Origin: Earliella scabrosa
Lineage: Eukaryota > Basidiomycota > Agaricomycetes > Polyporales > Polyporaceae
Direction: 5' to 3'
Length of the DNA: 64,000 nucleotides
Assembly: GCA_022605405.1 (NCBI GenBank)
Contig: JABYQQ010000029.1
Coordinates: 62,001 to 126,000 of the forward strand
In this document: positions 13,259-41,299 of the stretch, one piece after another
Layout: every line of letters starts with the position of its first letter
Position numbering within the stretch: the stretch's first letter is position 1
Notes under the pieces: model-generated
Database searches by the model: none
What the model was told of the DNA's origin: nothing
The model's input: the letters and a program-made list of their open reading frames with translations, nothing else
Translations under genes and position numbers: made by a program

Positions 13259-13320
13259 GCAAGGGGTCCGTTTGTCCATAGACTATCGCTTTTCGTCATC
13301 CAGGATTACATTCGCGCCCG
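13259..13320 (+). repeat. Left terminal inverted repeat of the giant element
   Basis: The core TAGACTATCGCTTTTCGTC at 13,279-13,297 is the exact reverse complement of 41,262-41,280. The outer 20 bases match imperfectly with one 1-bp indel, and inward similarity (TCCAG, ATTCGCGC) continues for some 25 bases. Repeat length is about 50-60 bp. Confidence 0.9.
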
Positions 13321-14213
13321 GCATGCGATCAGCATACCGCCCGGCGGCTTGCCAGATATATGCCACCCCACGCACTCGTTAATGTCTGCCCACTACCGCG
13401 AAAGAGCCCGCTCATTAGCACGAAAGAGCCCGCCCATTATACTCTTTGCGTCCCCTATGATGTTCCCTTTACGCCCGACCTCCAGGCCTTCTTTGCCCGA
13501 GACTATCCACGAAAGCGTCCTCCCCTCCTTCCTTTTCTATCCCGGCTCCATCGTTTATATGTCCTTAGGTTTATAAGTTAACGTCCCACCGTGTACCTCA
13601 TAGGCGTCCCACCTCCCAGGCCTTACCGCCCACGCCTGCATCCATTACAGCCCTCCCTTCTATATAATTCGCGCCCCGCCAGCCGCCACATATTCGCCCA
13701 GACCACGCGCCACTTCGCGCCCGCGCGATATGCCTTTGTCGCCCGCGCCCGCGCGCTTTCATGTCCCCCTTCCCACACATTTCTGTCCGTCCCCCCATGT
13801 AGTTCCTCCTCTCCTCCCCCGATCCCTTCACAAATGATATCCATCCCTTCGTGAGCACTCCGACATGCGCGCAAAAATACTCATGACCTCCCGATCGCGG
13901 TGCAAGAAGCTTAACTGCCAACTCCCTTCCCAGCTCCGCCAAGCGCTGGCAGAGCTCAGGCGCGCCTGCCTTCCGAATGCGTGCCATCTCCAACCACACG
14001 CCTCACTCCTTCGCTCCATTCTCTTTCGTTCTCCTGGACTTCACGCTCCCCCTTCTTACATGCCGCTCATGCAAGCACACTGTCCACCTCTGTCTACGCG
14101 CTCTCCAACTGTCCCCCTGCACGCTCCAGCTCGCCTTCGTCACCACCCCTGCCACTCGTCGCCGCATTCAACCCCCTGTCCCCCAAGTCCTTCCCCCACG
14201 CTTTCACGATGTC
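13321..14213. other. Left subterminal region, pyrimidine-rich, no supported gene
   Basis: The plus strand is extremely C/T-rich. Overlapping open frames occur on both strands (for example 13,598-13,999 minus and 13,865-14,260 plus). They are explained by base composition and none has a recognisable motif. The stretch contains a short direct repeat around CGAAAGAGCCCGC (13,400 and 13,420). Confidence 0.5.
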
Positions 14214-14787
14214 CTATCTCTTGGTCAGTGCGACCCAATCTTTACCTCCCCCACCACTGACCTCCGGTACATTTCCAAGCACCCAGCGTTGAATGTCAAC
14301 CAGCTCGGACGACACCTCGTGTCCCCTCTCCACCCCCTCATGCAGAGAAGTTAGGATCGTTGTCAACGTTCGGTACGCGTTCAACGACTCTGATCCCGCC
14401 TGCTTCGACAGGTACTGGTAGGCTCGAGCCAAGTCGGTGCATGCGGACGTCTGCGCCAACGTCGCCCCCACCAGACTCAACATCGGTGTGTCCTCGATTT
14501 TCGCGACCCATACATCCCAGTATTCATCAGTCCTCGGGTCTGGCGTCACCGGCAAGAAAATCTGATCTCATAGTAAGTCACTCAGTCTGTGTCGGCGTGC
14601 ACACCCAGTCACTTACTGCCACGTCCGTGCCATTACCGTCCTTCCGTCTCTCGCCGCGCACAAACAGAATCAGATCGTGCTCGCAAGAACCATTGGCACC
14701 GCTCATCGCCACGACCTCGGGAGCGTCCTTCGGACTCAGCAAGAAGATATGGGCGACCATCTGCAAAGGGTAGAGCGATTGAAGCAC
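14214..14787 (-). CDS. Spliced gene of unknown function, element left arm
   Basis: Two exons join in frame: about 14,617-14,760 (MVAHIFLLSPKDAPEVVAM) and 14,214-14,561, across a 55-bp intron (14,562-14,616, GTAAGT to CAG). The result is about 163 residues, ending in GKDWVALTKR. A TTTGCAG acceptor sits immediately before the first ATG, so an upstream exon is possible. It contains an Ala/Leu-rich helical middle (LVGATLAQTSACTDLARAYQ) and no motif that I recognise. It is one of the few genes in the left arm that runs on the minus strand. Confidence 0.55.
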
Positions 14788-15489
14788 TGGTGAGCCCCAT
14801 TCTCTCCACTTCCGCTCTTATCATCCCCGCCTCGTGTACTACATGACGCATCCGCGAGCAATCTGATCCACTCCCACTCCGTCCATCGCACCCAAGTCCA
14901 CCGCGTAGTCCTCATCATTCCACAATCATTCCACGTCCGCACGAGCCTCTTGTCATCATGGTCCACGCACGTCTGTTTAGTTCGCCACATTCCCTAGGTG
15001 CGACATCTTCCGCTTGCCCACCGCTGTCCAGATTCGTCCTTTCATGCAACCGCGTTCCTCCATGTTGCTCCTTCCTTCCACCACCTCATCCCCCCCGGTC
15101 GCGTACCACTCAGATGCTCCTCTCTTCCTCCCGCCCCCACCCTCACGTAGACACCAATATACTTGTGCTCCTCCCCTGCCGAGGATTCAATAGGCGCATG
15201 CCACACACGAGTTGTCTGGCTTCTTTTGCATTTCCATCAAAGGTGCGCCAATTCGGTCAACTACGGCCCGCTTGCGACCCGCCTGGACTGCCTCATGTGA
15301 CTGGGCCACCAAGGCCACGTGGCCGCGTGGCCGGCCACGCACCCTTCAACGCGCGTCGCGTCGCTCCCTCCCTTCATACACACCCGCCCTGTTCACTCAT
15401 TCTCACCCCCCCGCAACTCTGTAAGTTATTTGTTCCTATCATTACAGCCCTTCTCATGCTCAGCCACCCTAGCGCCGCCCCGCTTCAAC

Positions 15490-16458
15490 ATGTTCCATAC
15501 GCCCTGTCCTAATCACAGCTTCTTCCCCACCCTCGTCCCAGATTTATCTCTGTACATTCTCACCCCGCTCGATCTGGATTACCTCGGCGGCGTCGCCGGT
15601 TCCTGCGAGCTCGGGTCTCACTATATCGCCTACATCATCGGAGAACGCGTTCGTCGCCACCTTCGCCCCATATTTCCTGACCTCCGCGCCTTTGCGCAGG
15701 AGATGTACGACACCGGCTCTGTGCTGGGCGGGGAGACCACTCTACATCTCCTCTATCCCTCCATTCCTCCTCCCCCTACGGTCCACATCTTCACCCCCCA
15801 CATGGCGTGGTCTCATGTTGTCTCGCACATCATTGATGTTCAACGGTGCGGTCAGCCCCTCCTGACTACCTGTGCCATCCGGCGCGTCCGCGGCAATCTG
15901 GGCCTCGCGCGGTTCAAACACACCGGCTCAAACATCCCCTTCCTGCGGGTCGAACAAAGCCGATGCAACACACCTTTGGAGCCCATCGCCCGCCTGTGGA
16001 ACAGCGCATTGGCTTCGTACATCAGTGCCACAACGTACTGCGTCGCGTACCCAGACCTCATCCCGCGCCAACGCGCCCTAGTACCTTCCCATCATCTCGA
16101 CCAACGCGGCACCCAGTTCGGTCGACGCATTCGTTCTCTCGTTGAGCGTTGGCAAGGGCGTGGATGGGATATCGCACGCTCTCCTGAGGCTTGGACGAAC
16201 CTGCCGCTATGTGGTCATGTACCTACCCCGTACTGCCCATCCTCTACGCGTTGGTTCGGAGACGAGCATTGTGTCGTTGGATATTTGCATCCTCTCCGAG
16301 CCATTCCGGCTCCTCGACCTCTGCGGCTGGCGCTTGAAGACCGCTACGTCATCGTATGGTGGAGGGGCGGTCGCAGATGTTCTCAGAATTGCCACTCTCA
16401 GCATGCATTCCTCTCCGCCGGCGAGCGCGAATGCCCCCGCATCGCCCTCAAGGCATAA
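15490..16458 (+). CDS. Cargo protein of a fungal nucleotidyltransferase-like family
   Basis: Uninterrupted frame of 322 codons from the ATG at 15,490. The segment GSVLGGETTLHLLYP, followed 12 residues later by VHIFTPH, resembles the pattern of a large family of uncharacterised Agaricomycete proteins in which a G-S-x-A-L stretch precedes a D-x-D/Y-x-P strand. I recall that family as having a nucleotidyltransferase-like core, but the acidic residues are not present here. A late Cys-rich stretch (CPSSTRWFGDEHC) is also typical. It lies upstream of a related gene at 16,658-17,554 in the same orientation. Function unknown. The family link is by eye only. Confidence 0.6.
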   Translation: MFHTPCPNHSFFPTLVPDLSLYILTPLDLDYLGGVAGSCELGSHYIAYIIGERVRRHLRPIFPDLRAFAQEMYDTGSVLGGETTLHLLYPSIPPPPTVHIFTPHMAWSHVVSHIIDVQRCGQPLLTTCAIRRVRGNLGLARFKHTGSNIPFLRVEQSRCNTPLEPIARLWNSALASYISATTYCVAYPDLIPRQRALVPSHHLDQRGTQFGRRIRSLVERWQGRGWDIARSPEAWTNLPLCGHVPTPYCPSSTRWFGDEHCVVGYLHPLRAIPAPRPLRLALEDRYVIVWWRGGRRCSQNCHSQHAFLSAGERECPRIALKA

Positions 16459-16657
16459 CTACTTATGTGTATGTCTCGCTTTTTGTACGAATCTGTATAT
16501 CAATCACCATCATTTCTCCCCCCATCATCTGAACGTTCAAGGACTTTGACTTGGCGTCATCGCGTCGTCTCCCGTCGAGCCGTATCACATGGCAGTTCGA
16601 GCTCATAAGTTGGTCAGCTCCTGCCTCGGCCTCATATGCACTCACTATATCGCTATC

Positions 16658-17554
16658 ATGCCGCCTCTCACCGTCTCCGATCTCCCCCCCGCCGCGCGAG
16701 CATGGCTCTGTCAATTCCTTGACTTCCGCGCTTTAATGCGCCTCCGTCGCGTCTCCCATGGATGCCTGCGTTTGGTCCACGAAGAACTCTTCGAATCCCT
16801 TCGCGTTCTGGTGCAGACTTTCGTCCGCAACGCAGACGAGCTCGTCGACGTCCTCACTCGCCTAGACGGGTACATCGGAGGCGATGTCGCCCTCCTTTTC
16901 TTCCTCCGGACCTCCCACTTTCACGCCAATTCGCTCGAACTATACGTTCCCCCAACGGCATACGACATTTTGCGGGATTACCTACGCATCCGCCAGGGCG
17001 CCATCGAACGTCCCCCTCCCACCTTCTCCGACCATGTCGAGTACGTCTGGAACACACGAGCAGTTGAGCAGTACACCGACTTCCGCACCCCGTCCAACCA
17101 CACGGTCCGACTTTTCCAGAGCGTCACCCATGATGCGCTTGCTCCGATCACCCGTGGATGGGCCACCCACACGATTAACTATGTCAACGCCACTTACTTC
17201 GGATGCGCCCACCCCAGCTTGCTCTTCTCGTACCGTGCATGGTTGAGCGTCGAAGGAGATGATGAGTTCGCTCTCCTTCGAGAGGCTGAGACCCGTGGTT
17301 TCGATGTTCGCTTCTGTCCCTCGCAGTGGCCGGATCTCGGGGTGGGCCTATGCGGCGCCGCACGCGGCCTCTGTCCGTCCCAAGTGCGCAGGTTCAGCGA
17401 GCGACACGCGATCGCTGCTCGCATGAGGCCCACGGCCGACCAGCCTCTTGCCACTCGGCTACGATGGCGCACGTCCGAGGTCCCTTGTGGGGGTCCATGC
17501 TTGGCCGATTCGCGTCCGCAAGGATTGGCCCCATGGCAATTGTACCAATGCTAA
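16658..17554 (+). CDS. F-box-like cargo protein related to the preceding gene
   Basis: Frame of 298 codons from MPPLTVSDLPPAARAWL (an in-frame ATG also exists at 16,589). The N-terminus LCQFLDFRALMRLRRVSHGC has the spacing of an F-box. The segment GGDVALLFFLR followed by LELYVPPTAYDILRDYL is the same kind of module as in the upstream gene and in many Agaricomycete hypothetical proteins that pair an F-box with it. The conserved acidic residues expected of an active nucleotidyltransferase are not evident (LELYVP in place of D-x-D-Y-x-P), so catalysis is doubtful. Same strand as its neighbours, with the C-rich codons of the left arm. Confidence 0.6.
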   Translation: MPPLTVSDLPPAARAWLCQFLDFRALMRLRRVSHGCLRLVHEELFESLRVLVQTFVRNADELVDVLTRLDGYIGGDVALLFFLRTSHFHANSLELYVPPTAYDILRDYLRIRQGAIERPPPTFSDHVEYVWNTRAVEQYTDFRTPSNHTVRLFQSVTHDALAPITRGWATHTINYVNATYFGCAHPSLLFSYRAWLSVEGDDEFALLREAETRGFDVRFCPSQWPDLGVGLCGAARGLCPSQVRRFSERHAIAARMRPTADQPLATRLRWRTSEVPCGGPCLADSRPQGLAPWQLYQC

Positions 17555-17784
17555 CTACGGCCGGCGTTAGGTAGCTAGCATCATCTCATACATGTCCAAT
17601 CCTCGTCATGCTCCTGCGCTCCTCCTGCCGAACCCTCTTCTCCCCGCCTCCACGGCTGGCTATGTTGTATACTACTTATCCTCGTCTCCCTTCCATGCCG
17701 CCTCTGTAGCACCTATTAGCCCCGCCTTCATCCCACGTCTTCGCTACATCAGCACTGTTTCGTTCCCGCTTGTTTACGATCCAC

Positions 17785-19576
17785 ATGGCGGCCGCGACCA
17801 TGGCCACGATGTTCCGCCGGCGAAAATATATCCCATCGTCGACCAACACCCCAGGCTCACATCATTACAACTGGTCACCCCGTGCACCAACACGTTTCCT
17901 CCTGGAGGTCTCAGGTGCTATCACCCCCTGGTTTCGGCCTCTCAAGGAGCTAGCCATCGACGCCAAGCGGTAAGTCTGCCCCTCCCCCGTCCCGTATGCA
18001 TCCCTCGACCGCATCCCCGGTCTCTTTTTGCGAAGTGCCACGCGTTGGATGCAGCCAGTATCTAGCCTTGATTGCGGCTACCCTAGCCGTGTCGACGTGC
18101 CTTGCCCTCATGCATCACCATGCCTTCCCTCGTCGCGGCACCCTCAAATTTGTTCATCTGATGGCCCGCCATGAGTCGCCTCAAGCCTCTCGACTCGAGG
18201 CGTACATATCTGCTCCACTCCTGCACCCTGCGTATCTCTCCGTGGCACTCCCCCTTCGACTACTCTGCTTCGATTCGACTACCCCGCAGACAGCCCCTCC
18301 CACCCGTAGGTATGCGTTCACATTACAATCTTCCCGAGCAGGAAACGCTTACCATACGTCGCATTCAGGACAGAACATGGTCCGTTTCTTGCGACGCAGT
18401 CCCCGGCTGGCCTGGTGCCAGATTCCCCAACACTTGGTGCACTGGTCCATTCAGGAGCATCTATCGGTGCAGGAGCTTTTGGCCTACTCGCCTTTCCCCA
18501 TCGAAGTCGTCCGAGTTGTCGACTCCGATGACTCCGACGACAGCTACGACCAACGTTTCATCCTCTCGACCACTGCCCCGCCAGATCCAACTGAAGAGCT
18601 TCGCCAACGCGAGCTTCCCTCCGAATCAGCCGTTCTCGCCACCATCCGGCAGTGGGAAGACGATGAGGATCAGTTGTACGTTTCGTTCCTTGACCACCGC
18701 CTTGCCAACCGGCCCACGCCTCTCTGGATGCTCGCTGTCTGGCTCAGCATTCACGAAGCGTTCCACGCGCGGCGCCAGTGGACGGCCGCAACCCGGTGGC
18801 TCTCGCAACTTATGTCCGCCCACCCTCCCAATTCGCCTGTCCACCACGCCGCCCAACTCGCTTTGGCATCGTTCGCGCACCTTCCGTGGAATGAACGCCT
18901 GGGCGCCGCTCAACGTCTCTACGCCCATCAGTTGCAGCCTTTCTTTACCCCCAAGCCGATCCTCACTTCCCTCGTCGATGCCATGATCACCACCACTCAG
19001 GAGCGGATGCGCGCCACTCCTCAGCTTGATTCACATGTCCTCATTGCGTCCAGTTCCTTTGGCCGCTACATCTATGGTGGCGCGCAGAGCGATTGGGCCC
19101 AGTACTCCTGGGCTCCGAGGTTTCAATATCTCCGTCGTTTCGCGGCTCGGATGAACAACCCCAACAAGCCCCTCCATGCCGTCTTCGTCCCCTGGCTCAG
19201 CGAGTCCGATTGGGTGCTCTACGTCTTTGACGTCCCCAACAGAGTCATTCGCTTCGCGCCTGACATCGTCGGCCCACGCACGATGACTGATCTCGCACGC
19301 ATCCTCTCCTGGTTCGAAGTTGCTCACCTCGGACAATGGCGGCTGGAGAGCACTCTGCCCTATGGTGGACCGCCAGACGGCTTCTCCTGCGCTATCGTTG
19401 TCGTCAACGCGATCAAGCACGCCCTCTTCCAGGACGACTTGTGGACCCCGGAAAATCGTGACCTGCTCAGGATCACAGAGTACCTCAACATCGTGTCGGG
19501 CCTGGTCGTCTCATGTACGTGGCAGTCTTCATATGTTCACGGGCCGGCTCTCACGTCGTTGTTAGAACCACTTTGA
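17785..19576 (+). CDS. Ulp1/C48-like cargo protein with apparently lost catalytic residues
   Basis: The main exon runs from about 18,310 to the TGA at 19,574. An upstream exon (17,785-17,969) joins in phase at CCCGTAG but leaves a 340-bp intron, so the 5' structure is uncertain. The protein has a helical segment (LPWNERLGAAQRLYAHQL), then a Ulp1-type core: VFVPWLSESDWVLYVFDV, IRFAPD and PPDGFSCAIVVVNAIKHALF. In Ulp1-like proteases the first block carries the catalytic His before Trp and the last carries Q-x(4-5)-C-G. Here His is replaced by Asp, Gln is absent and the Gly after Cys is Ala, while the Cys itself remains. The fold is therefore probably kept without canonical activity. The two canonical Ulp1 domains are in the element's transposase protein. 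Confidence 0.65.
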
Positions 19577-20546
19577 TGGACCTCTGTCCGCGCCGCGGCG
19601 TTCATCTCCCGAAGATGTCCTCCTCAAGCTTACCACACCCCTCTGCGTAGACCGCACACGCGGCCGCTCGCCTTCGCCTTCATTCCACTCTTTCACCCCA
19701 CCCCTGCCCCGTCTGAGCCGGCGACCTTGGGATCGCGCATTCCTCGCGCACCGCCCGCCGCCTCTCTTCTTTCTGTATAGGCTTGCTTCCAAGGTCGTCT
19801 GGTGCCGCGCGCTGGACCCGGTTCATTTCGCTATATTCCTGCCTCGCCCCATGATGTACATACGTTTACATACTCATGTGTCTGTGGCACCGTTGAATGC
19901 CATTGTGGGGTGTTCACCGTTTATATCAGGTTCGTCGAGCGCACGAGCCACGTTTCACCATTCTTCCGTCGGTCCAGTCATGCTGCATAGTCAGACATGC
20001 GCGCCAAGCTTGCTCCCCCATCGGCATACGCCCAGCATCACCTCAGCCACTTCGGCCCGGCAGCCCGCTATGCCCGTGTAACTCCGTCTTCGGCACCGCC
20101 GATCTCGATCCACATCCCTGCCTCTCCCCTGTTCCCTCATATTCTCCTCTGCTCGCCTGTACTTATCGTGTTCCAGAGCCTCCACATTCAAGGCATCGAT
20201 ACCTCGCATGCCCTTCTTTCACGCAGCAATGGCGCCTGCGCGCCATTGCGCGCCCACAACACCTACCACCCGGCATCAGTTCGTCACCTTCGCCCGGTCC
20301 CGCTCGACTATCACTCGGCCAAGATTTCCCTGGCAATAGCGTCAGCGTTCAGCTTCAGGTCGCCCCCTGTTCCACGGCACTGTGTATGTGAGTGCTCATG
20401 TCTTCTTTGTCTCCCTAGGTGGGCTCGTTGCGCTGTGTCGGGGTATGTACATAGTCATTTCGCGCGTTGGCTCACCGGAACATAGTGTCGTTGCTCCATA
20501 CCGATGCGCCTTACCATGAAGATCATCGGCCATTAGATAGCCTCAG

Positions 20547-22870
20547 GTGAGCCCTGGGACGGCTGCTCGGCTGCGGGCCCTTCCACTAGTACAAGCTCAA
20601 CCTTCAACACCAGGTCGCCACCCTCCCTTCCTCAGATTCTTCCCCAGATCTTCCCCTACCTCTCCTCCGACTCCTCGTCCTCCGACTCCTCGTCCCGCTG
20701 CCCTGTTCCTCCCTCCTCCCGCCGAGCAGGCCATTGCCAGCCTCGACCCACGTCCTCAAGCCTCGGCCCCTCACGCACGCCGTCATGCCTTTGCAAGGTG
20801 AGCCACCCCACGCCTGCTCCATCCGTCAATTGGCCCCCTCCCATGCGCACCGCAAGCAGTATACTAGGCATTCTGCACGTCGCACTGTGTCTCCGACCCT
20901 GGAAACCATGTGGCCGGTTGCCTAGAATCTGCAGCGTCCCAAGGCGTGTGCGCTGTGCCAGCAGCGGCGCGTGTCTCCGACCCTGGAAACCGTGTCGCCG
21001 CACGCACTTCGCTCTCCGCCTTTGTTCGCTCTCATTCAACCCCCCACTCTCATCCTCACATTTCGTGCCACTCTAACCGCCCTGTTCTGGATTGTGTCCT
21101 TATCAGGAACCGTCAGCCCCCTCTCGCAACACCCAGCCCCAGCCCCACCCATTCTTCCAAGTGAGTCTGCTCAGGGCGGTTTCGTGTAACACAGCTGACC
21201 ACCGCAGATGTCCGCGATGGTTCAGGACCCCCAACCCGCGCAATACCTCACCAACCCCGTCAGCCAACCGTGAGTCACTCGTCATTCCCGCACTTACCCT
21301 CTTGACCTCCTTCCTCAATCAGACCGTGCTGGCCTCAGGCTATCAGCTCGATGTTGATTTGCTGGCAATTGTCACCGAAGCCGCCGCGGGTGGCGAGCTG
21401 GACTACGAGCCCGACCTGCTGGACGAGGATGAGCCCCCGCTGTCCACTGACGACGGCGAACCCCAACTCCTCTCGGATGCGCGTCCCCCGTCTCGGCAAG
21501 CAGAGCCCCCGGCTCCCCAGTCTCATGACCGTGACAAGCGTCGCTGGAAGAGGTATCGGCAAGCCATCCGCGCGAACCCGGCCCCACAGGACGGCCACCG
21601 ACAAGTCAAACGCGTCGCCTTGCGTGCTCTTCATCGGGTCTCCGTGGTACGTGTCTCGACGAGCATGACTCAGGACCGCGCATTACCCCGCACGTGGGGT
21701 CTCATGTCGCCGGACGTCGTCATGTCGGCCTTCTCTGCTGCAAGCACCGCCTTCGTTGGCCGCCTTATCCGTCAGAAAGCAGAGGACCGCCGGACGTATG
21801 CCCTCGACGAACTCAAAACGCTCGGCTTCCAAATCATCGAATGGGACGGATGGTATGACGCGTGCATTCTCGCCTCCCCAGCTGGCTATGCTGATAGCTC
21901 AATATAGTAATCCTTTGGTCTTTTTGGATTTGGAAGAACGCGCGTTCATGGTGGGTGCAGGCCAACCTCGTGATGCTCAGTGGCCAGCGGTATGTCATGA
22001 AGCCACCCGAGTGCTCGACAGCGCCGGTCAGTCGTACCAGCAGGAAGGCCCGGCGAATGTGCGACGCGGCGAGTATCCCACCATCACATGCGGCATCTCC
22101 TATGGTGGCGGGCAAAAGGTCAGTAGGCGTCCTCGCGTCCGCATGACCCTTTCACTGATCTGGTTACCAGCGGGTCAGCAACGTGGCGCAATCCCCTCGG
22201 AACCAGACAGTTGTCGACAATATAGTCAACAGTCTGCCCTTCCGACGCCTTTCGGGGTTTGTAGATGGTTGGTCACCTTCCTTGCTGCTATGGACCCCGT
22301 CCTCTGTGCTCACATCGTCGTGCTTGTCATTGCACATGTCTAGCGTCTTTCAAGCTGTTTGCCCCTAAGCTGTACGAAGATTATCGCTCCCTCATGGAAG
22401 GCCTTCGGCAGCGTCACCCTGATCTTCGTCCGGCTTTTGGGAACAACGTTTTCGCGGCGTCCACGTTTAATCTTGGTGGTAACGTTGCGACGTACATTCA
22501 CACCGACCATCTCAACTACGCGTCGGGGTGGTGCGCGGTGGTCGCCTTAGGTGATTTCAACCCTGACGTTGGAGGCCACCTAGTTCTATGGGACCTCGGT
22601 ATAGTCCTTCGTTTCCCACCCGGCTCATTGTTGTTCCTTCCATCTGCCATTTTGCGCCACTCCAATGTGGTTGTGCCCGAAGGCCAGCGCCGCTATTCTT
22701 TCACGCAGTACACTGCGGGCGGGCTCTTTCGATGGCAAGAGTGCGGCTACCGCTCTCAGAAGGATTTCCTGGCTGCTGGTCACCGTTACGACCTCAGTGG
22801 CTGGCAGCGTTGGCGTTCGGGGGTAGAACGCTATAGTACCCTATCGGAATTGCGAAGTCCTGTTTCATAA
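20547..22870 (+). CDS. TET/JBP-family 2-oxoglutarate/Fe(II) DNA dioxygenase
   Basis: Family members oxidise methyl groups on DNA bases (5mC to 5hmC, or thymine in JBP). Exons that join in phase are 21107-21160, 21208-21269, 21323-21852, 21908-22118, 22171-22267 and 22344-22870. A Pro-rich exon at 20547-20801 probably belongs to the N-terminus, but that join and the start are unresolved. Order of motifs: acidic then basic linker, GFQIIEWDG, the strand VFLDLEERAFMVGAGQP, ITCGISYGGGQK, then the jelly-roll core. In the core, HTDH (His codon at 22,499, Asp at 22,505) is the metal-binding H-x-D, RHSNVVV (His at 22,658) the distal His, and RRYSFTQYTAGGLFRW holds the 2-oxoglutarate-binding Arg. All metal and cosubstrate ligands are present, so the enzyme looks active. 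It is element cargo, transcribed like its left-arm neighbours. Confidence 0.85.
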
Positions 22871-24799: not shown

Positions 24800-24879
24800 G
24801 TTGACCTGTAATGTAGTCAAACATCAAGTCAGACTACACTCACAGCCAACGTACTCCGCTACTCACGTAGGCTGGATAT

Positions 24880-29400: not shown

Positions 29401-32400
29401 CCAATGGCTGGGTAAGAGGGTGGTATCTTCAGGCGCGTGTTTGCGAAAGCTAACCATGCACATAGTGGCCGAGACAGCACGAGAGGAGCGCCGACAGATC
29501 CCCGCGGGAACGACCAAGAAGTCGTTGGGCTTGCCGCGTGAACGCAAGATGCGATCAGACGAGCTGGATGCCAAAGACATAGAGAGCGTCAAGCGTCTGC
29601 TCAAGAAGTACGACGACAGACGCGCGAAACGCGAGAAGGAAGCGGCTCTCCGTCACTCTCTGCCTACCGCCCCGCCAGGTATGTGGCCCGCGTATGGCTC
29701 CACCGACTGGTTGATAGTGTAATGACACTGCTGGTGTAGGTGCGACCACGCCGGGGAGACCAAGACATATCCGGCCTATGCAGCCCTACCGGACGCCCAC
29801 TCGCCCGCGGGCCCCCCAGGGCTCGCGCAGCCCCTCACTCCCGCAAACACCCTCCCGCGCGACCTCAGCGAAGAGGTTCCTTTCACTCCCGCACGTGCCA
29901 GTCTTCAATGCGCGGCCTGGCCCGAAGAAGAAGGAACGACTGGCTGCAAATAGCTTGCTGCCCGCAACCGAGGCCGTCCGGGAGGCGCTGCGAACTGTCA
30001 GAAGAGGCAATGCGGCGCCCGCTGGGACCCCGTTCCTGCCGGAGGAGTTTCAGATCGCGAGCATGACCTTCGAACATTGGCGCGAACCGGGATACCAACT
30101 ACGTCTGGACGAATGTCTGCGGTTCATAGATTGTCTCAACAACTCATGTATCGCCCGTGAGCATGGCATCGTATTCTGGGTGACTCCGGCTGCGCCGTTG
30201 GCGGCCGTTCTGCGCGGACGGCGGACAACGATGCCGGACCTGTGTACAGAGGTGCGTGTCTGGCTTGCTGTGCATCGCCGTGCATCGACTGAAGGGCAAA
30301 TTCAGCTGAGGGCACAACGACACGGTCGCTTCGCGGATCTCATCGACACGAGGGCGGGCCAGCGCGTGAACCGCCTGATATTCCTGCACCACGAGAACGT
30401 CCACTGGACCGTGCATGATCACGATCTCACCTCGCGACCCAGGAAAATACGATGCCTAAATTCCCTTCCGACTTCCTCCCCGATGAACATCGACGAGCAG
30501 CACGCCATTGCATCAGCCGTTGAAGCGTCAGAGATTTGGGCCCTTGCTGAGCCGGTGAGTGAGATGCAGACCAGCGTCACAGTTCAAGTATATCTTACCG
30601 GCGCGCAGGACATCGACCCGTCACTACGAGGAGTTCAACTCTCCATCGAAGTGATACCCACTGGTATGCAGACCGACAATTCATCATGCGGGTTCTGGGC
30701 CGTGTTCTTCGCGTGGACTTGTCTACTTGGGATCGACCTGTCTCAGGAGGCGATCGCAGACTTGCGAGCTGAAGATCTCAAGGACCTTCTGCAGGAGATA
30801 TGCACTTCGTACGTCTCTGAAGACGGAGGGTTGACTACGGACGTCCTGCGCGAATGGTTTGACGACTTTGACGCGTCGGTTGAATGGGACTTGCTTCCGC
30901 CAGTGGTATGTGCCGGCTTCCCGAACGTCCGCGTCGTGCGATGCTGACGACGTCCTTAGTTCTCTTCCCGCCCGACAGAGCAAAGCGCCGCCTTGGATTT
31001 GAACGCTCTATTGGTGCCAACCCCCGTCTCACCCCGCCCCGCTGTCAACTCCGCGACGAGCGTCACACAATCCACCACTGTGAACTCAGCCACGAACGAC
31101 TCACAATGTTCCCATACGCAGGAGGTCGTCCTTGTGCCTTCAGTTCTGCAACGGAAGGACTTGCAAGACAAGCTAGAACGATTCCGACGTAGCGAGGAGA
31201 CATCTTGGTGGGAACATGACCAAGAACGTTTCCAGCGCAGCGCGGTGGAGACTCTCTGGAACGGCAATGGTACTACGACGTTCATCGTCGACGCACTACT
31301 GGCTGGACCTACAGGCGACTTGGCGAATGGCCAGTGGGACGAGGCGTTCGGAGAGGTCCCTCTCCCGACCCGGCCACCAGCATCACGCGTGTACATCGTT
31401 CCTCAGTCCGTGGCTGCGGTATTGATGAAAACCCAGGGAGTGCGGAAAGCCAGCGAGGAAGGTCTAGCTCCGAAAGGGAGGATGAAGAATGGGTTCTGGT
31501 TCAAACGGGTAAGTAGTCGGCGTCGCATGCAGCTGTGGTTGAAGGCCTAACAGTGGACTGCCTAGGATGTGTTCGAGCTTCATCTGCTGATCGTGCCCAT
31601 GTTCTGGAAGGACGACGGTCATTGGCTATGTGCCATAGTCGACATGCGCGAGAAGACAATCGTCATCTACGACAGCATTCGAAAGCTCGGTCGGGCGAAA
31701 GCAGCATATGGGGTGCGCGTCCTCTTCCATGTCCCTGTCTTGTGGCGTAGATCTGACCTGTCTGGAACAGAGGATATTCAAAATTCTCCAGTATGAGCAT
31801 CGCGCGCGGCGCGAGGGTGTTAACTTGGCGGCGGCTGGTTGGAGCCCGGAGTTTACGGGGGATGCACTGGTGAGACGCTTCCCCCACCGGAGTTAGATGA
31901 CATCCTGACCGATCCTCGCGCAGCCGACGGTTCCAAATCAAGGTGCTAGCATGTATTGCGGGGTCTTCATGATCAAGTTCATACTCGAGGTGATGTGTGG
32001 TCGCCCTCCCAATCGCGCACAGTTCTCGTTCACCCAGGGTGACGCGAAACGACTTTCGGAGGCCCTGGTCCTGCGGCTGATGCAGACGCTGCGGGTTGAA
32101 GACATGAGTCAAACCGAACAGGTGAATTCGATGATTGCAATCGTACGCACGGGGTTTTGATGTATATTGTGCAGGTACAACCATCCAGTGCGCCAATGGC
32201 GACGAGCGAAGGCGGCGCAGAGCAACCGGTGCCGCGGCAAGAAGTGACCCGCGCGGAGGTGTCCGACCACGCGGTTGCGACATCGCCTGCGGCACACAGT
32301 ACCTGCGTCAGCGAGAAGCCTCCGACACTCATCGCTGTGTCGACGATGGAATATACCTCGGGAGACATCGTATGCGCCGACGACGTGACCATCCCCACAC

Positions 32401-34134
32401 CCGTTTCACCTGCTCCAACCTCGGAAGATACTGCGGCGGCTAGCGGGGCAGACGCAGACGGCATACCCACCGTAGAGACACGGGTACGCATCACTGACCC
32501 GCCTCTGAGGACCCTCATGACTTATCACGCGCGCTGTGAAATCTCTGATCAGGGTGACGACGGTGCCAATGACTGTGGGATTGATCTTGCGGCCGTTGTG
32601 GAGTCACCTACGGTCATGCAGTCGGATTCAAATGGGGCCGCAAGTGGGGCACGCGACCTGGAGGTATGTAAGCGGCTTGGGGCTGAGGAGCGACAGGGCT
32701 GAGGTTCATCTTGCGCATTCGACAGGATTGCGAGATGCAGGACGAGTCCATCTCGCGAGGGAGTCACCCAACCACCAAGCGTCAACAGAACCGGAGGCCT
32801 GCGTCCCTGACGGCTCCCCGTCGATCCTCAAGATTGAGCGGTGTTCAGCCGGGCCAGGATACGGACGCGGGGGCGACCAATTCGGCAACCTTGCCCACGC
32901 GCCGTTCTGCAAGACTCAGTGGACATGGCATTGTAGATCCTGACGCGTCATCAATATCCGCGGCTGTCAGGCATCGGCGTGGGGGTCATCCCCGAGCGCC
33001 AGTGGCAGAAGGCGTGGAGACGCGAGGACGGGGGGCCGCGAGTAGCTCCAAGACTACGGGAACCACCTCATCAGCAACGAGGTATGTACGACCTTATCAT
33101 GACCTACGTATCCCGAGGGAGTGACATGCGTTCAGAAGCAGGAGGCGCGAGCCCGCTCTACAACCTGGGGACTGGATGATGATGGTGTTACCGTCTCCGC
33201 CAGTGGCAACGTGCGCTTGGCGAGCCTACCCGGTGCAGGTTCTTCGCTATGACGGGAAGAAGAAACGAGTTCAGGTGGGGGGGGAGCCTGAACTGCTGTG
33301 GCTCGAAGACCTCCCAGATGGAACGACCGACAGTGCGTCGATGGCCACAGTGCAAGAAACGCTGAGAGCCCCACGGTGGGTCACACTTCAAGAATGCGAG
33401 CGAATGGGGGATCTATATATACCGCCTGGTGAGGTAAGTACCCGGGCAGTACTGCTTAGTTGGATGCTCATGAGTTGCAGATCGTGCCGATGAAGTGGCC
33501 TGCGGATCTGGAATACCGTAGCCTAGGTCGCGTGCACTCAGCTCCGCTGACCGAACGTCGAGCGGCTCTGCGGAAGGTGCTCGAGGCGGCACTCCCGGGT
33601 ATGAACGACGTGCTCGCGGGACTCACTGACGCGGACCCCGTATTCGCCAAGTTGGTCCACGACTGTCTTACGGCCCATGGCTACGATGACGAGGGCGAGG
33701 AGATCATCCCGGGTTCGTCCAGTGGACTAGGTGGGCTAACGCCTTGGGGGTTCTACATGGCACATGTGGTCGATCGAATGACCACCCCGAAGGAGCCACG
33801 TCACTTGCTAGACGCGGGGGACGAAACCCTCTGTGGGGAGCTGGCCCGCACGTTGGAGCGGAGGCAGCCGCTTCGAGGACCTAACGAACGCTCCTTTGTC
33901 AAATGCGCCGGCGCGGGGAAGGTATATCTGGCATTCATGGCTCTGTCGCACTATACGGGGTGCGATATCACACGCGTGGAGGAGGCGGTGCAGCAGGGAC
34001 ATCTCCGACGTCCTTTGTCGAAGTATGAGCGCGCTTGGAGAGCATACGACAAAGGCTGGCAGATGAACTTGGTCGACACTCACCGCATCATCACCCCGGA
34101 CATAGTAGTGGAACTTCCTGTATTTGTCGAGTAG
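26415..34134 (+). CDS. MULE transposase-SWIM-Ulp1-Ulp1 polyprotein (2,256 aa)
   Basis: Eighteen exons join without a stop: 26415-27143, 27192-27360, 27410-27629, 27689-28062, 28125-28262, 28321-28960, 29017-29196, 29260-29411, 29466-29678, 29740-30905, 30960-31508, 31566-31712, 31771-31869, 31924-32121, 32175-32663, 32726-33081, 33136-33433, 33481-34134 (6,771 nt). Domains: AT-hook KRGRGRPPN at residues 7-15. MULE DDE core with Asp413 (LDSSWRNKN), Asp532 (FMIDKC, followed by LCQFHVVQAI) and Glu739 (NNWIERSFRTFD). SWIM zinc finger C836-x-C-x9-C848-x-H850. First Ulp1/C48 domain with His1160 (VHW), Asn1179 and Gln1249-x5-Cys1255. Second with His1529 (GHW), Asp1546 (YDS) and Gln1598-x5-Cys1604. 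Ser/Pro/Arg-rich linker. C-terminal module with VLRYDGKKKRVQV and ELLWLEDLPDG. It would cut and join the element ends. Whether it is made as one chain or several transcripts needs RNA evidence. Confidence 0.88.
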
Positions 34135-34694: not shown

Positions 34695-35536
34695 ATGTCC
34701 ATGGACCCGAGCTCGGACGAAGAGTCCTATGCGCAGTACTGTGCCGCCATGCACGCCCGGGCGACCGCAGGGATCGCCATCGACTTCGACTCCACAGTGA
34801 AACGGTTGCGTCCAAGCAAATCGATGGCGAGTGGCGTGAGTGTCCCGGAGACAGTGTGCCCGCAAGACGTGACGATGGAGGACGACGAGGACGGTGAGGG
34901 ATGTACGAAGGAGACGGGCGAGGGTGGGGATGATGACGAGGGGAGGAGGTATGGGTGGCTGCCCAAAGAATGCGGGCCGAACGACGCAAGGATATCGTTC
35001 ATGTCCGACACGGACCCTTTCCTTTTCATTTCAGCGCGCGAAATCGTCCTGGAGGTGGCCGACAATCAGCACTGCATCGAGGTATGTACGTGGGCGGTGT
35101 GATAGTAGGGCGGCACACTGACACAGGTTGGGGTGGCACAGGTTGGAATGCCAAACAGCATGAGCGAGGTCCGCAGCTGCGGGGCCGATTTGACCCAGTT
35201 CTGGGCGCGCCTCGTGAACAGCGATCTGTTACGCAAGCTGTCTGGGGGACAGCTTGACGCCTTGCGAAAGTTCGTGGGCATCTTGCAGTTCTTCGCCACA
35301 AACGAGGGAGCGTCAAGGGACTCCTGGAATGCCTTCCGATATCGGTATTCTGCCCAGCTCAACATGGCCTCATCGCTGAGAGGAGGGCTGCATCGAGCGG
35401 GCGGAGAGCAACTGATGGCGGATGTGATCGCGTGGGCGAAGGACGAGCTGCCGGTACGTAGAGAGAAGTGAATACGCGTCGCCGAAACTGATATGCCCTG
35501 CAGATGGCACTGGCCACACCGCCTGACCTGCCGTAG
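34695..35536 (+). CDS. Right-arm cargo protein 1, unknown (243 aa)
   Basis: Three exons join in phase: 34695-35081, 35142-35453 and 35504-35536 (732 nt with TAG). The N-terminus is acidic and Ser-rich (MSMDPSSDEESYAQY, then an Asp/Glu run near residue 60), followed by a helical C-terminal half (LTQFWARLVNSDLLRKL, LDALRKFVGILQFF). No family recognised. First of a set of small acidic right-arm genes in the same direction; it starts about 560 bp after the transposase stop. Confidence 0.65.
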
Positions 35537-35893
35537 AGGGGACGTCCGGAGAGCGCCATGCTGGCAGAGCAGGACGGACGGACGTCGTGTGAGCTGTGGT
35601 GATCTGTCGGCTCGGACCGAATGATGTACGAAAGGCCGTGAATCGATGTAGCTTGTGTTGGGGCCCGAACACGAGGTGATGTGCCGAAAATGCCATCGGA
35701 TGATGCAGATGATGCACATAATGCACACGGCGGGGATCGAAAGCAACATGACTGGGGGGTACAAGCGGATCGATTGAGCGTGGCAGAGTATATGTAGATG
35801 AGACCCCACGATCGACCTACCTACCCCTACGCCGCCTCGATTTGCGGATTGGCGACCGGATTGTGAGAGACGACGAGAGCATGGTGAGCACAC

Positions 35894-36901: not shown

Positions 36902-38087
36902 ATGGTCGGAGATACGACTGATGAGGCCGCAGGAAACGGAGGAGGGTCGGACATACTAGTGTCGTGTGGGGCGAATGGCAATGTGAGTTCCCTGATCATA
37001 AGAGAGGCCCTCGGAGCGGAGCGACTGATAGCGTCGATTGACATGGCCTCGTCTGGGGATGACTCGTCAGCGATCTCAAGAAGGGACGAGGGCGACAGCG
37101 ACACGATGGAGGTGAGTGGGCCGCACGCTTGACCAGGAGCGCGAGGGTGATAGATAGAAGCAGGGTGAACTTACCATCGCCGGGAGGAGCACATGGGGAG
37201 GGGATGTGAGAGACATGCAGCGAAGGATGGAGGAATGGGATCCCGAGGTGGTGGGGGAGGTGTTGTGGGGGGGGGGTTTCATCACAGGTGAGCCACGATT
37301 GCGGGAGTATATGCGAGCGTTGGGAGGATACCTAACGCGTGGCGTTGAGGAGAGCAGGATGACGGTGTTGGGGAACAGCTGGGGTCCCGGCGAAGGGGTG
37401 AGAGCACGCAACCAGCAGGTGATCTTAGCAGTCAATGGAGATAACACCCGCCCTGTGCTGGGGGATGTGTCCATTGAAGTGTGGCGGTTGGATACCAGCT
37501 TCGGCAGACCGGAGGAATCGGTGAGGATGACACATAAATCCCAAATGGATAAACAGGCGATGTTGGTTGACATAATTGCTAGCTAGCGTTCCCTACGAAC
37601 CGAAGAGAAGCAGGCCGATGGGCGTACCGACTACCCATGAACGTTTGGCTGAGCGACGTCGTAGAGGAACAAGCGACGGATCTTGAGGTGCTCGGGCGTG
37701 TGCTCTCGTACTTTGGAACGCGACATGCGCGCGAAGACGAAGGACAACTGGACGAACAATGGGGAAGCTTTAACCGTGCGGTGTTGGACGTCGTAGGCAC
37801 TCGAATGGACTTACCTGCGGTCGCACGTCTACATGCACTCATTGAGTGGACACGCGCGTCGTTACGTGTGAGTGTCTATTGACTGTGGACTGGGGCAGTG
37901 TGGAACCTGATGAGATTACAAGCAGAACGTTGTTGATGCCTGGCATCCAGAGCGGACCGGTGGATGGCCAAACGAAGATGAGCGGATGGCAAGTAACGCG
38001 AACGGATGGCACGCACCTGGCGTGAGCATGCGCTGGTTGGAGTCGGACAGTGAATCGGAAGAGGAGGAAGCTAGCGAACGGGCGTAG
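36902..38087 (+). CDS. Right-arm cargo protein 3, unknown (337 aa)
   Basis: Four exons join in one frame: 36902-37111, 37164-37520, 37583-37867 and 37926-38087 (1,014 nt with TAG), every intron 52-62 bp with GT-AG ends. The consistency of phase across three introns is good evidence of a functional gene. The middle contains PEVVGEVLWGGGFITGEPRL and a Trp/Arg segment (RREAGRWAYRLPMNVWL) before a helical region. The C-terminus is acidic (SDSESEEEEASERA). An ATG further upstream is not excluded. No known family recognised. Confidence 0.65.
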
Positions 38088-38373
38088 ATAGTTGATCAGA
38101 AAGTCACAATGACACGAAGCGGAAAGCTAATGAACAAGTGGCAGTTGTTTGTAAGTACTTACTGAGAATGCTGGTGCCTCGAGGCGGGCCGCCAAGCCGA
38201 ATTTGATGCGACACCGAGGCGATCACAGTCGGGAATGATGTGGTAGCGGTGGCTGACGGACCTGGCCACTCCAATTGCCACCTAGCTCTCGGGCTCCATA
38301 TACTCACACACCCTCGATTGCTGGCGGCCGGCCTGCTCATCGCACGCGGAAGCTCGACTGGGTCCCAAATCGA

Positions 38374-39845
38374 CATGTCGCATTCGCATTCCAGAGTCAT
38401 CACACGGCGGGGTGGGCGCACTGCGACCGCGTCGGCTGGACGGGCGGCGGGGGGGGAGCTGGCGAGCGAGAGTGCTTTGGGTGAGTACCGTATTTATGTG
38501 ACACGTCGCTTGAGCCAACAGCGAAGCGCAGCGAAGACGGCAGTGAACGTAGTGAAAGGAATGATGTGCGTGCGTGGGATGGTGGGCTGGAGAAGGGCAG
38601 TACGGCTGACACGTAGACAGCTACTCGTGGAAGACGAAGATATGGAGCGCGTTGGGGGTGGAGTTGCCTCTGGGTATGGTGGAGGAGATTGGCGAAGGGG
38701 GAACAAGCAAAGATGTAAGTGAGTTCGGTGGCGTGATTCGTGAACGTTGGAGGCCTACTGATATGCGAGAAGGGCATGCTCGTTGTGCGGCTGGTGGTGG
38801 CTTGTGATACAGTGGACCGAAACTCAAAGCTGGCTCTGGCATCTGGTCTGCCAGCCTGGGGAAAACATCAGCTAATCTGGACCGATATCGTGTCGCACCT
38901 GTCGATCCAGGACGTAGGGCGCCCCATACCAGCGGTCTGCCTGGAGCCGCAAGAGACAAGGTTCATCGGGACGAACAGGGAGAGTCTGTGGTGGTCCACG
39001 GCCGTCTGGTTGTCATTCACCCAGCAGATGCGAGCGACGCCGAGCTGTAAAATTGAGACAGTGAGTTACATGTGGTGCTATGAAATGGTTCGCTGATGGG
39101 ACCCCTCCAGATGCTAGAACGCCACATCTGCCGGAAGGATGACGGTTGCGTATGGCAACGTGTCTATGCGCCGGAGAGGGATGTCGTTCTCTACTGCGAA
39201 AGGTGTGCGGTTTGGCTTCACGAAGACTGCCTACGGAGGGTGGATACCCTGGAGAATGTGCGCCGACGCGGCCTCATTCGCTTCTCGGAACATCTGGAGT
39301 TTGAGCTCAGCGCCGAGGAAGAGATTGACGGGGGGGATTGGCAGAGCGAGAGCGCGAGCGACTCCGCCAGCGGAAGCGAGTGCGAGTGCGAGGGCAGAAG
39401 CGCGGGGGGGAACCTTGGGGTGGAAGGGGGAGCGGGAGGAATGAGGGCCGGGCATGGGAGCAGACGGGGCGTGGGGCGTGGAGGGGAGGATGAGCAAGGT
39501 GGGGGGGAGGAGGGTGACATACAGCTGGTAAGCGATGAGGAGGAGGACGATGATGAGGTGGGGAAGGCATTGTGGCGGGCAATCCTCTCCAGTCCGGTTC
39601 AACGTGGCTGGCCGCAATTCGTGCGCAACGTGCCGTTGTCCTTCGAGGTTGTCCAGCTGAATGCGCGTCGCCTTGGCAGACGTCCTCGAGACATAGAGGG
39701 ATGGATGTCAAGGCAGTACGCCATGCATTACAGCGGGCGACTGCCTGATGACGAGGGCGAACATGAGTCATTCTTTTGGAGGGCTCTTACTATGGACCCC
39801 GCTGATCGTATTGTATATCGCTGCGAGTACGGACATTTTGTGTAG
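38374..39845 (+). CDS. Right-arm cargo protein 4 with PHD-like zinc finger
   Basis: The last three exons join in phase: one ending at 38714 (opening ATG most likely MSHSHSRVITRRGG at 38,374), 38753-39060 and 39111-39845, with introns of 38 and 50 bp; the 38-bp intron is unusually short. After a region beginning LLICEKGMLVVRLVV comes a Cys/His cluster: HIC, DGC, then YCERCAVWLHEDCL. The spacing C-x2-C...W-x-H-x2-C is that of PHD/treble-clef fingers, which in chromatin proteins read histone tails. A Ser/Glu/Gly-rich low-complexity stretch and a C-terminal helical domain follow. The zinc-finger assignment is by pattern only, and the preceding region could be a BAH-like domain. Confidence 0.6.
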
Positions 39846-40262
39846 TGAGGTACGAATATGATGTTCGTAGTGCGGTATGCATGGTGTATCCTCCGCATCG
39901 ACCCTCTGCGCCTCGAGCGCGTCGATGAGCTTCGGTGAGGTCCGGAGCTGCTGCCGCGCTTTGTGGTACTGCATCTTGGAGAGCCGCAGCTGCTCGTTTG
40001 TACGCGCGGAGGCCTGCGACGCGGATATCTTGTACTCGTTGGCCGACTTTGAGAGGGCGAGGACCTCCTGGGTCTTGTTCTCGGCCGCGTGCGCCCTAAA
40101 GCGCTCGGCCTTCAGGTGCTCGTTGAGGGTGAAGAGGGTCCGTTGGAGGTCCATAGTCCCGCGCTCACGGGAGACGAGGCCGCGAGCGACGTCGGGGATG
40201 GAGTTGAAGCCGTTCGTGCGGTCGCCACCACCACCCTGGGAGCGGCGCGTCTTACGAGTGTG
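39768..40262 (-). CDS. Coiled-coil protein near the right end of the element
   Basis: Minus-strand open frame with a long charged helix: MDLQRTLFTLNEHLKAER, SASQASARTNEQLRLSKMQY and LIDALEAQRVDAED, a heptad-like pattern. The frame is open upstream through a Gly-rich segment (RSQGGGGDRTNGF) toward about 40,262. A short exon with ATG (MASSESSTPGP, near 40,312) may be its start. It resembles small coiled-coil hypothetical proteins common in mushroom genomes and points back toward the element interior, overlapping the 3' end of the zinc-finger gene by about 80 bp. Function unknown. Confidence 0.55.
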   Translation of the reverse strand, partial: HTRKTRRSQGGGGDRTNGFNSIPDVARGLVSRERGTMDLQRTLFTLNEHLKAERFRAHAAENKTQEVLALSKSANEYKISASQASARTNEQLRLSKMQYHKARQQLRTSPKLIDALEAQRVDAEDTPCIPHYEHHIRTSLHKMSVLAAIYNTISGVHSKSPPKE

Positions 40263-40329
40263 CTCGCTTATGCTGCAGCGTGCGGACCGGGAGTGGAGGA
40301 CTCGGACGATGCCATATTACAGCGTGAGG

Positions 40330-41250
40330 TAGTATGCAGTCTGGCGTGACGTCTTAGTGCACACCGAGCACACGCACAACTTCGCACGTACCCAGCCGAA
40401 TCGAGAGCTCGTGAGCATTCAGGTGTTGTCCAAGGTAAGTTTGGCGTAATAGATGCCCAACACATCCTGGTACTCACCGTGAACAATGCGAGAGGTAGGC
40501 GGGAAATGGGCGACAGGCGCAACACAATGCGTATACAAGAACGTCAGGACTTGGCATTGACATTGGATGAGAGGAGGGAGGTGATGGTAAGTACATTGGA
40601 GGGGGTGCACATCAAATGCGCGTACATACAGACCGGCGGGCGCAGGGGGTGGGTCACCCCCGGGAATGAGGGTTGGCGGGTGGCAGGGAGGATACGAGCA
40701 GGTCACAAAGGTCGAGCAGTAGTTTGACCGGGGCCCGGCAGTAGAAACCTTGACGCGCAGCGAGAGGGTAGACCGACGTCTGACGTGGAACGACGACGAG
40801 GACGTGGAGGTTGCAGCGCTGGGCGGGGAGGGACGGTGAGTAGCTGGCGCCTACGACGCAGGCGGTAGAGGAGGAAGGGAGCGCCAGGGAGGTGTTGTTG
40901 GGCGTTAATGGCAAGGGGACGCTGGTGGCTGCTGACGGCGGGTGGTGCGGGAAATATCGTGAGATGGCCGGGTAGAAGTCGGAGCGCCCAAGTGGCGGGG
41001 AATAGACGGCAGTCGCCGAGGGGGAGGCGCGAGGAACGATGTATCATACAATTGCCTTTTGTGGTGCGAATCGACGTATAGACGCCCGTGGACAGTCGTA
41101 AATGAGCAAGAGCGTAGTGGTGCAACAAGGGCGTATGGAGACACATGGTTATTTTTGCGTGAAAGGGCCTGGGCTAAAGTGCTAGTTGACAAAATTGGGG
41201 GTGTATGGGGCTAGTGGGTGTGCAACTACACGGGGGTCGGGACAAAGCGC
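40330..41250. other. Right subterminal region, purine-rich, no supported gene
   Basis: The plus strand is G/A-rich with several overlapping minus-strand frames that are explained by composition. No motif or splice chain was found. Confidence 0.45.
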
Positions 41251-41299
41251 GAATCTGGAGGGACGAAAAGCGATAGTCTAGGGACACCTGACCATTTTG
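41251..41299 (-). repeat. Right terminal inverted repeat of the giant element
   Basis: The reverse complement begins CAAAATGGTC and continues into TAGACTATCGCTTTTCGTC (41,262-41,280 on the given strand), the same core as the left end. It abuts the right copy of the target-site duplication. Confidence 0.9.

Follow-up and report, generated by a model that had tools for sequence, protein, structure and literature searches.

The analyzed window of 64,000 nucleotides (C29:62,001–126,000) originates from the genome of the wood-rotting polypore Earliella scabrosa (51.67 Mb, 48 contigs), and the block at its positions 13,259–41,300 (28,042 bp) is very probably one autonomous, cut-and-paste transposon of the Mutator superfamily, belonging to a lineage of giant Mutator-like elements (MULEs) in this fungus. 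The lineage is likely an undescribed one, with elements several times as large as ordinary MULEs, in which a conserved module (a Ulp1/SENP-like gene, G3, the F-box/LRR gene G5, the transposase, further peptidases, and the gene G8) is accompanied by an optional TET/JBP dioxygenase gene, which together would form a self-contained anti-silencing kit, and the element would then be the first TET-positive MULE. An earlier note on the window had already read the block as a giant Mutator-like transposon, and this reading is supported here by a second copy, by relatives, and by transposase homology; the conserved module among the cargo genes and the TET/JBP dioxygenase gene were overlooked there. In the following, the window element is referred to as copy A, and its counterpart on C11 as copy B.

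The ends of copy A consist of the following features:

13,250–13,258, no strand: left target-site duplication GACGACAAT, its 9-bp length set by the small relatives and copy B
13,259–13,297, plus strand: left terminus, the GCAAGGGG motif followed by the terminal inverted repeat (TIR) core TAGACTATCGCTTTTCGTC at 13,279–13,297
41,262–41,300, minus strand: right terminus, the TIR core at 41,262–41,280 (reverse complement) and the CCATTTTGG end
41,301–41,309, no strand: right target-site duplication GACGACAAT

The inverted repeats with a 19-bp exact core, which had been claimed previously, are present. The arms at 13,273–13,297 and 41,262–41,286 (25 nt, 96%) include this core, which, with the right end at 41,300, begins at nucleotide 21 from either end, while the outermost ~20 nt (GCAAGGGG... 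on the left, CCAAAATGG... on the right) are no clean inverted repeats of each other. The 10-bp direct duplication reported earlier, GGACGACAAT, does exist on both sides of the block, but the true duplication is 9 bp long (GACGACAAT), and the right boundary, placed at 41,299 by the earlier note, had to be corrected to 41,300, because all of the nine readable small relatives end with CCATTTTGG followed by an exact 9-bp flanking duplication, and because copy B shares this end and is likewise flanked by a 9-bp duplication. The core motif GACTATNGCTTTTCGTC has 23 exact occurrences in 51.7 Mb, all of them at the two giants or the ten small relatives, and its reversed control has none. With up to three mismatches allowed, 25 places were found (control, 0), 24 of which are ends of giant or small elements and one is a stray on C6. 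The insertion lies between a pair of similar host genes, F-box-like by eye, at window positions 10,970–12,499 and 44,178–45,860, and the element may thus sit within a host gene cluster. No predicted gene crosses the insertion site in the joined flanks of copy A or, likewise, of copy B.

When the first 301 bp of the element were used as a query, at least 12 places were found, namely the window locus, a near-identical counterpart on C11, and ten sites with small elements; the right 301 bp also match C11. Such place counts, obtained by nucleotide searches with the element ends, are lower bounds. The ten small places match only nucleotides 1–62 or 1–64 of the element, at 86–87%, and represent one family, the members of which are 95.0–99.6% identical to L015 and start exactly at GCAAGGGG. 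Nine of them, 678–682 bp in size, are readable to the right end, and the tenth (L022, on C2) is interrupted.

Copy B is 69,393 bp in length including the closing G, has the same ends as copy A, and is flanked on both sides by its own 9-bp duplication, CTCGACATA. The two copies share 99.13% identity over 27,940 aligned bases (242 substitutions) and are collinear, except for five extra stretches of 25,704, 707, 911, 13,248, and 715 bp (~41 kb) in copy B. Judging by their sequence, the two large ones are LTR (long terminal repeat) retrotransposons, with a TG start, a CA end, 4-bp duplications, and LTRs of 740 bp (99.6%) and 1005 bp (100%), and the 707- and 715-bp insertions have hAT-like TAGTGTTG/CAACACTA ends. 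Since the extra ~41 kb of copy B corresponds to five later insertions, the ancestral size is 28 kb. A composite or deletion origin, which was considered in view of the C11 termini being 69 kb apart, was rejected, as the extra DNA resolves into LTR elements, hAT-like small elements, and the 911-bp piece. The transposase gene of copy B carries a premature stop and is interrupted by three of the insertions, and G5 has lost its end to the largest one. The 911-bp stretch, located at window position ~29,117, has TACGATTGAT...ATCAATCGTA ends plus ~30 bp past the second end, and is not fully explained. The 25,704-bp insertion (B coordinates 10,075–35,778) is a Gypsy-like LTR retrotransposon, in which a nested TET-positive Kyakuja-type element is apparent by eye (predicted TET at 13.6–16.3 kb and a KDZ-like protein at 16.9–20.7 kb of the insertion).

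A more distant relative of the transposase (66% at the DNA level) is found on C19, where the letters of C19:104,001–118,000 and C19:141,401–142,400 were inspected. A terminus reading ...GTCCATTTTGC and then AACGTTGAA is located within C19:104,001–108,000, and the left end was accordingly predicted to lie beyond the outermost cargo gene, on its upstream side, and to read AACGTTGAA and then GCAAGGGG. The search pattern AACGTTGANNCAAGGGG produced 66 matches with up to two mismatches (69 in the control), yet exactly one with no mismatches in the 51.7 Mb, with about 0.1 exact matches expected by chance genome-wide. This sole exact match, C19:141,986–142,002, is on the expected strand, 0.9 kb past the last cargo match. 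Reading of the C19 left end bore out the prediction, and the element measures 36,039 bp between its ends, with a flanking 9-bp duplication. Its TIR core is of other sequence but at the same offset, and it has the outer GCAAGGGG and CAAAATGG motifs in common with the window element. The C19 terminus adjoins an aldo-keto-reductase-like host gene (name read by eye).

Far from being confined to the window, a possibility that the earlier note had considered, the termini thus recur at the full C11 copy with a different duplication, and also at the ten small relatives and the diverged giant sharing the outer end motifs. The mobility of the block as a unit is well supported by two insertions with different duplications and by one diverged relative. 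From what is known of MULE biology, the transposase would bind the TIR core at both ends, pair the ends, and insert the block at a 9-bp staggered cut, and the same enzyme may move the small elements in trans.

A candidate end rule for members of the lineage is GCAAGGGG/CCATTTTG. A wider left-end motif matched exactly at 17 places and with one mismatch at 23 (1 and 0, respectively, in the control), which indicates that more families of such elements exist; among these places is C8:1,555,489, just outside three G3 homologues. The 23 one-mismatch left ends, such as GCAAGGGGTCCACTTGTCC, point to more families with the outer GCAAGGGG, likely further small non-autonomous elements. The stretch C8:1,545,525–1,555,489, which contains a left end, three G3 homologues, and an N-terminal part of TET, and no transposase match, is probably a relative of the C19 element that has been degraded or truncated. 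The transposase loci C4:753,635–756,064 and C6:419,540–421,969 are nearly identical to each other (second sub-family), suggesting that another family may have been active recently.

Genes were modelled using a home-made predictor, for which 85,872 nt of long open reading frames (ORFs) served as training data, and the merged 10-exon gene that it gave at 16,658–21,907 was divided by hand. In total, ten models were retained, i.e., the transposase and nine others, and the weak models at 34–39 kb were excluded before the constraint counts; gene prediction yielded no trusted gene within 34.2–39.0 kb or 13.3–15.6 kb. The earlier estimate of at least ten cargo genes is thereby reduced to nine supported besides the transposase:

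15,703–16,458, plus strand: G1, hypothetical protein with weak similarity to the C4 gene that G2 also resembles (ORF and A/B comparison; no Pfam match)
16,658–17,554, plus strand: G2, F-box-like by eye only, with a C4 homologue beside the transposase (35% identity, opposite strand; no Pfam match)
18,374–19,576, plus strand: G3, Ulp1/SENP-like cysteine peptidase (fold matches; no Pfam match)
21,208–22,870, plus strand: TET/JBP 2-oxoglutarate/Fe(II) dioxygenase, 6-exon model (homology and the fold of P0012)
23,303–24,799, minus strand: G5, F-box/LRR protein, with transcription directed away from the transposase (Pfam LRR, 2.6e-5; F-box-like, 0.0095; both sub-cut-off)
26,415–29,678, plus strand: MULE transposase, modelled with 11 exons, D413-D509-C531xxH534-E695 and a SWIM finger at the C-terminus (3' boundary of the gene uncertain)
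29,742–30,947, plus strand: C48a, second peptidase-like gene (by eye), possibly fused to the transposase (no Pfam match)
31,482–32,160, plus strand: C48b, Ulp1 family peptidase (PF02902, E 1.3e-15; 5' end uncertain, may begin near 30,993)
32,517–34,134, plus strand: G8, unknown protein belonging to the core block (the fused proteins of Mycena and Favolaschia end in a similar segment, by eye)
39,111–39,845, plus strand: PHD-finger-like protein, conserved at the C19 element (PF00628, E 0.0021, sub-cut-off)

The transposase, described earlier as intact and central, is indeed central and has an open frame, although its model (890 codons) requires 10 introns; the catalytic residues were read by motif and alignment. 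It shares 29% identity over 811 residues (E 2e-85) with the Tilletia protein P0008, the Pfam scores of which are 34.9 bits for MULE (above the PF10551 cut-off) and 37.2 bits for C48. Among 7,998 scored candidates, 11 proteins are homologous to the transposase at E 0.001 or better. In an alignment of 11 rows, composed of the own model and ten of the eleven matches, PF10551 is found in four rows, and SWIM and C48 in five rows each (E ≤ 0.01). As regards the hallmarks of the Mutator superfamily, the duplication falls within the range of 8–11 bp, being 9 bp at copies A and B, the C19 element, and nine of nine readable small elements, and TIRs are present, but short compared to the long TIRs of classical plant members. 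On C12, a MULE of another lineage (C12:1,398,599–1,398,919, plus strand; 30.2 bits, above the cut-off), one of six PF10551 matches in the genome, lies 2 kb from a TET/JBP match (C12:1,401,000–1,401,491, minus strand), possibly a second, independent MULE-TET association. The 556-aa MULE-type protein shown by L035 in this connection has no significant similarity to the transposase of the window element.

Comparison of the loci revealed that G5 homologues occur at seven places, which are the same as the seven transposase loci (C29, C11, C19, C1, C4, C6, and C18). At all of the seven, G5 lies upstream of the transposase on the opposite strand, with a divergent gap of 1.5–1.6 kb at six loci and of about 8 kb at C18. 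G3 homologues (14 matches) are likewise found near all seven transposase loci, within ~15 kb except for the inflated C11 copy, the others being three at C8, with no transposase match there, and those at two further places. The G3 homologues at C18:1,053,817 and C3:1,701,588 have identical scores and are located away from the transposases of the lineage. Since G5 and the Ulp1-like G3 accompany seven of seven transposases, the cargo is to a large extent a conserved module rather than the result of random capture. The TET matches (37 rows, several per gene) fall within copies A and B and the C19 element, with the N-terminal part at C8, and the TET/JBP gene is inside the delimited ends of all three elements (in the case of C19, as judged from search matches). 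One TET match is contained in the largest LTR insertion of copy B, next to an apparent Kyakuja transposase (by eye).

No internal stops were found in the ten models of the window copy; in copy B, a single model, that of the transposase, contains one. The pooled ratio of nonsynonymous to synonymous differences per site (pN/pS) between copies A and B is 0.34 (45 nonsynonymous differences at 8,902 sites and 42 synonymous ones at 2,856 sites, with 78 transposase bases unaligned), which shows selection on the genes taken together. None of the 15 small indels distinguishing the two copies is located in the 42% of the element covered by coding models (P 0.0003, or P 0.004 when only the 10 frameshifting indels are counted), a result somewhat favoured by the fact that the models were picked for open frames in one copy. 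Between the window element and C19, five genes (transposase, C48a, C48b, G8, and PHD) have nonsynonymous differences of 0.28–0.35 and synonymous ones of 0.72–0.82 (saturated). Of 147 transitions between copies A and B, 91 are at CpG, compared to ~29% expected from composition. Such an excess is what deamination of 5-methylcytosine (5mC), the TET substrate, would give, but it is indicative only, because a site was flagged as CpG when either copy has CpG.

A total of 339 homologues of the TET/JBP protein were found among 7,999 scored candidates. In 38 aligned homologues, Tet_JBP was detected in 13 and the broader 2OG-FeII_Oxy_3 in 8, and the Fe(II) ligands H317, D319, and H370 (H-x-D...H) are invariant in 18 rows. 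A PDB profile search with the TET alignment gave nothing at E up to 1, and structure comparison was therefore needed to identify the protein. The model of P0012, the annotated protein of copy B (pLDDT, the predicted local distance difference test score, 92), has the top PDB match to CcTet (E 1.5e-12; template modelling score by query, 0.61), followed by NgTET1 and CMD1, and TET2 is listed at E ~1e-6. The exon model of copy A is uncertain at 21,950–22,344, where P0012 includes more sequence. The enzyme is not of the PE type, because HxD is present rather than HxE, and the residue at the CcTET 337 position (Asp in the AG type) is Cys by plain offset counting without residue alignment. CcTet is reported to oxidise 5mC and N6-methyladenine (6mA) (PMC12730594). 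As for the peptidases, a Foldseek search matched G3 to SENP5, SENP2, and Ulp1 (best E 1e-6) using a three-sequence model of low confidence (mean pLDDT 56.8), and only two proteins similar to G3 were found among 7,993 scored candidates. A PDB search with C48a returned no useful match.

It is somewhat more likely than not that the cargo is an accessory kit which keeps the element expressed by counteracting silencing. In this view, 5-methylcytosine deposited on the element would be oxidised by the TET/JBP enzyme. The Ulp1-type peptidases may strip SUMO from proteins involved in silencing or transposition, or else process a joint product of transposase and peptidase, and host ubiquitin or chromatin factors may be the targets of the F-box/LRR and PHD proteins.

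Several results weigh against the interpretation given above. With 19 exact bp, the inverted repeats are short, and they begin only after the outermost 20 nt. The transposase itself is below the Pfam cut-offs (MULE, 16.4 vs. 27.6 bits; SWIM, 16.4 vs. 19.6 bits), and a PF10551 search of the genome misses the window locus, its six matches being at none of the seven loci; the assignment to MULEs is made because of the homology to Tilletia P0008, which passes the PF10551 cut-off. Similarly, the Tet_JBP Pfam score is 15.8 bits vs. a cut-off of 34.9, and the fold search with P0012 also lists FTO and AlkB at E ~1e-6, weaker than CcTet. No TET match is located near the C1, C4, C6, or C18 transposases, so TET is an optional extra. 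C48a (4 vs. 1) and G8 (6 vs. 2) are without constraint individually, and single genes vary; a weak gene candidate at 34,695–35,602, outside the tested gene set, has a 7-bp indel between copies A and B. The CpG observed/expected ratio of the element (1.02) is near that of host stretches (1.03–1.10), the LTR insertions having 1.25–1.37, and CpG depletion of the element is at most slight. The ends of the C4 element were sought but not found, and both ends are known for copies A and B and the C19 element only. In addition, the two G3 homologues of C19 are 11.2 kb apart vs. 0.5 kb between their C8 counterparts, and because this ~11 kb is nearly absent at C8, it may have been inserted later, and the native size of the C19 element may be ~25 kb.

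It is conceivable, though rather unlikely, that the cargo aids the element in ways other than anti-silencing, e.g., by peptidases processing a transposase polyprotein, or by TET marking or opening target sites instead of reactivating the element. Gene models from Mycena and Favolaschia, in which the transposase, two peptidase-like parts, and a G8-like part are fused (~1,590 aa; parts by eye), and Tilletia proteins fusing MULE, SWIM, and C48 are in line with such processing. TET, on the other hand, is encoded by a separate gene, and is also found in ten other transposon lineages (PMC12730594). A clearly improbable explanation is that small, normal MULE ends flank host genes by chance or co-mobilisation, as in composite or Pack-MULE-like capture, the genes being mere passengers. 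Gene capture by MULEs is known (PMC6446971, PMC6431247), F-box-like genes are found in the flanks of the element too, and within the compared stretches, matches to G1 and G2 were confined to C4, so that some of the cargo may be passengers. However, copies A and B contain the same gene block, the diverged C19 element likewise has TET, G3, G5, the peptidases, G8, and PHD, and both the G5 and G3 genes at seven of seven transposase loci and the pooled pN/pS of 0.34 speak against mere passengers. An integrated viral genome using a MULE transposase, like Teratorn, would agree with the size and gene number, but is highly improbable given that no capsid, polymerase, or packaging family was found among the Pfam matches of the ten models scanned. 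Finally, a 28-kb segmental duplication of the host chromosome between C29 and C11 without any transposon, to which the two near-identical long blocks might point, is refuted, unless the junctions are misassembled, by the separate 9-bp duplications and flanks of each copy and by the termini, which alone define ten small mobile elements.

The giant Mutator transposon thus favoured has much in common with the fungal MULEs of Tilletia, Mycena, and Favolaschia (P0005, P0007–P0010), namely the DDE and CxxH residues, a SWIM finger, a linked C48 peptidase, and a 9-bp duplication, but differs from them in being 28 kb or more in length and in having about nine extra genes. Fungal MULEs are listed with one or two ORFs in the table of a 2019 survey (PMC6446971), and the Pack-MULEs of Jiang et al. 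were no longer than 7 kb (PMC6431247). The element is a member of the Mutator superfamily, and its size and gene complement are unlike those of the members described in the available parts of these sources. Among the matches listed in searches of titles, abstracts, and open-licence literature, there was no description of a giant fungal or basidiomycete Mutator-like element, or of a MULE with Ulp1 or TET. An earlier remark on MULE neighbours may possibly be found in a 2014 PNAS paper on TET/JBP and KDZ transposons.

Like the window element, the fungal TET-positive DNA transposons (Kojima 2025, PMC12730594) carry a TET/JBP gene, for which an escape from methylation silencing was proposed. In the available text of this December 2025 survey, ten TET/JBP transposon lineages are given, MULE not being among them, with only Kyakuja in Polyporales, and the two mentions of MuDR, both in its introduction, concern Vandal and Phytophthora families (PMC12730594). 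A KDZ element, suspected because of the TET gene, was ruled out by the MULE homology of the transposase, the ends, and the duplication length; Kyakuja (KDZ) has a 7-bp duplication and 5'-CA..TG-3' ends without TIR, whereas the window element has a 9-bp duplication, GCAAGGGG/CCATTTTGG ends, and a TIR core, and no KDZ match was found in Pfam for the ten models scanned. The VANDAL MULEs of Arabidopsis, which are MuDR-type (PMC12730594), encode VANC, which causes methylation loss on its own element (PMC5735166). VANC is a sequence-specific anti-silencing protein with no dioxygenase described in the available part of that source (PMC5735166), whereas a dioxygenase is predicted for the window element. 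The likeness to Starships suggested by the earlier note holds as an analogy only: Starships of Pezizomycotina are also giant fungal elements with many genes, but are classed by their tyrosine recombinase (PMC12134995), a gene found in none of the ten models scanned, while the window element has a DDE transposase, TIRs, and a 9-bp duplication.

DDE cut-and-paste transposons are thought to be less efficient with cargo above ~6 kb, although much larger cargoes have been mobilised (PMC6431247), and a recently moved 28-kb MULE with intact cargo bears on this size limit. With such an element, basidiomycetes would gain a counterpart of Starships built on a different enzyme. An open-gene copy, a broken copy, and small non-autonomous relatives within one genome offer a clean experimental system. 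The element also adds a MULE to the transposon lineages carrying a TET/JBP gene, which supports the idea of demethylation as a recurrent counter-silencing weapon.

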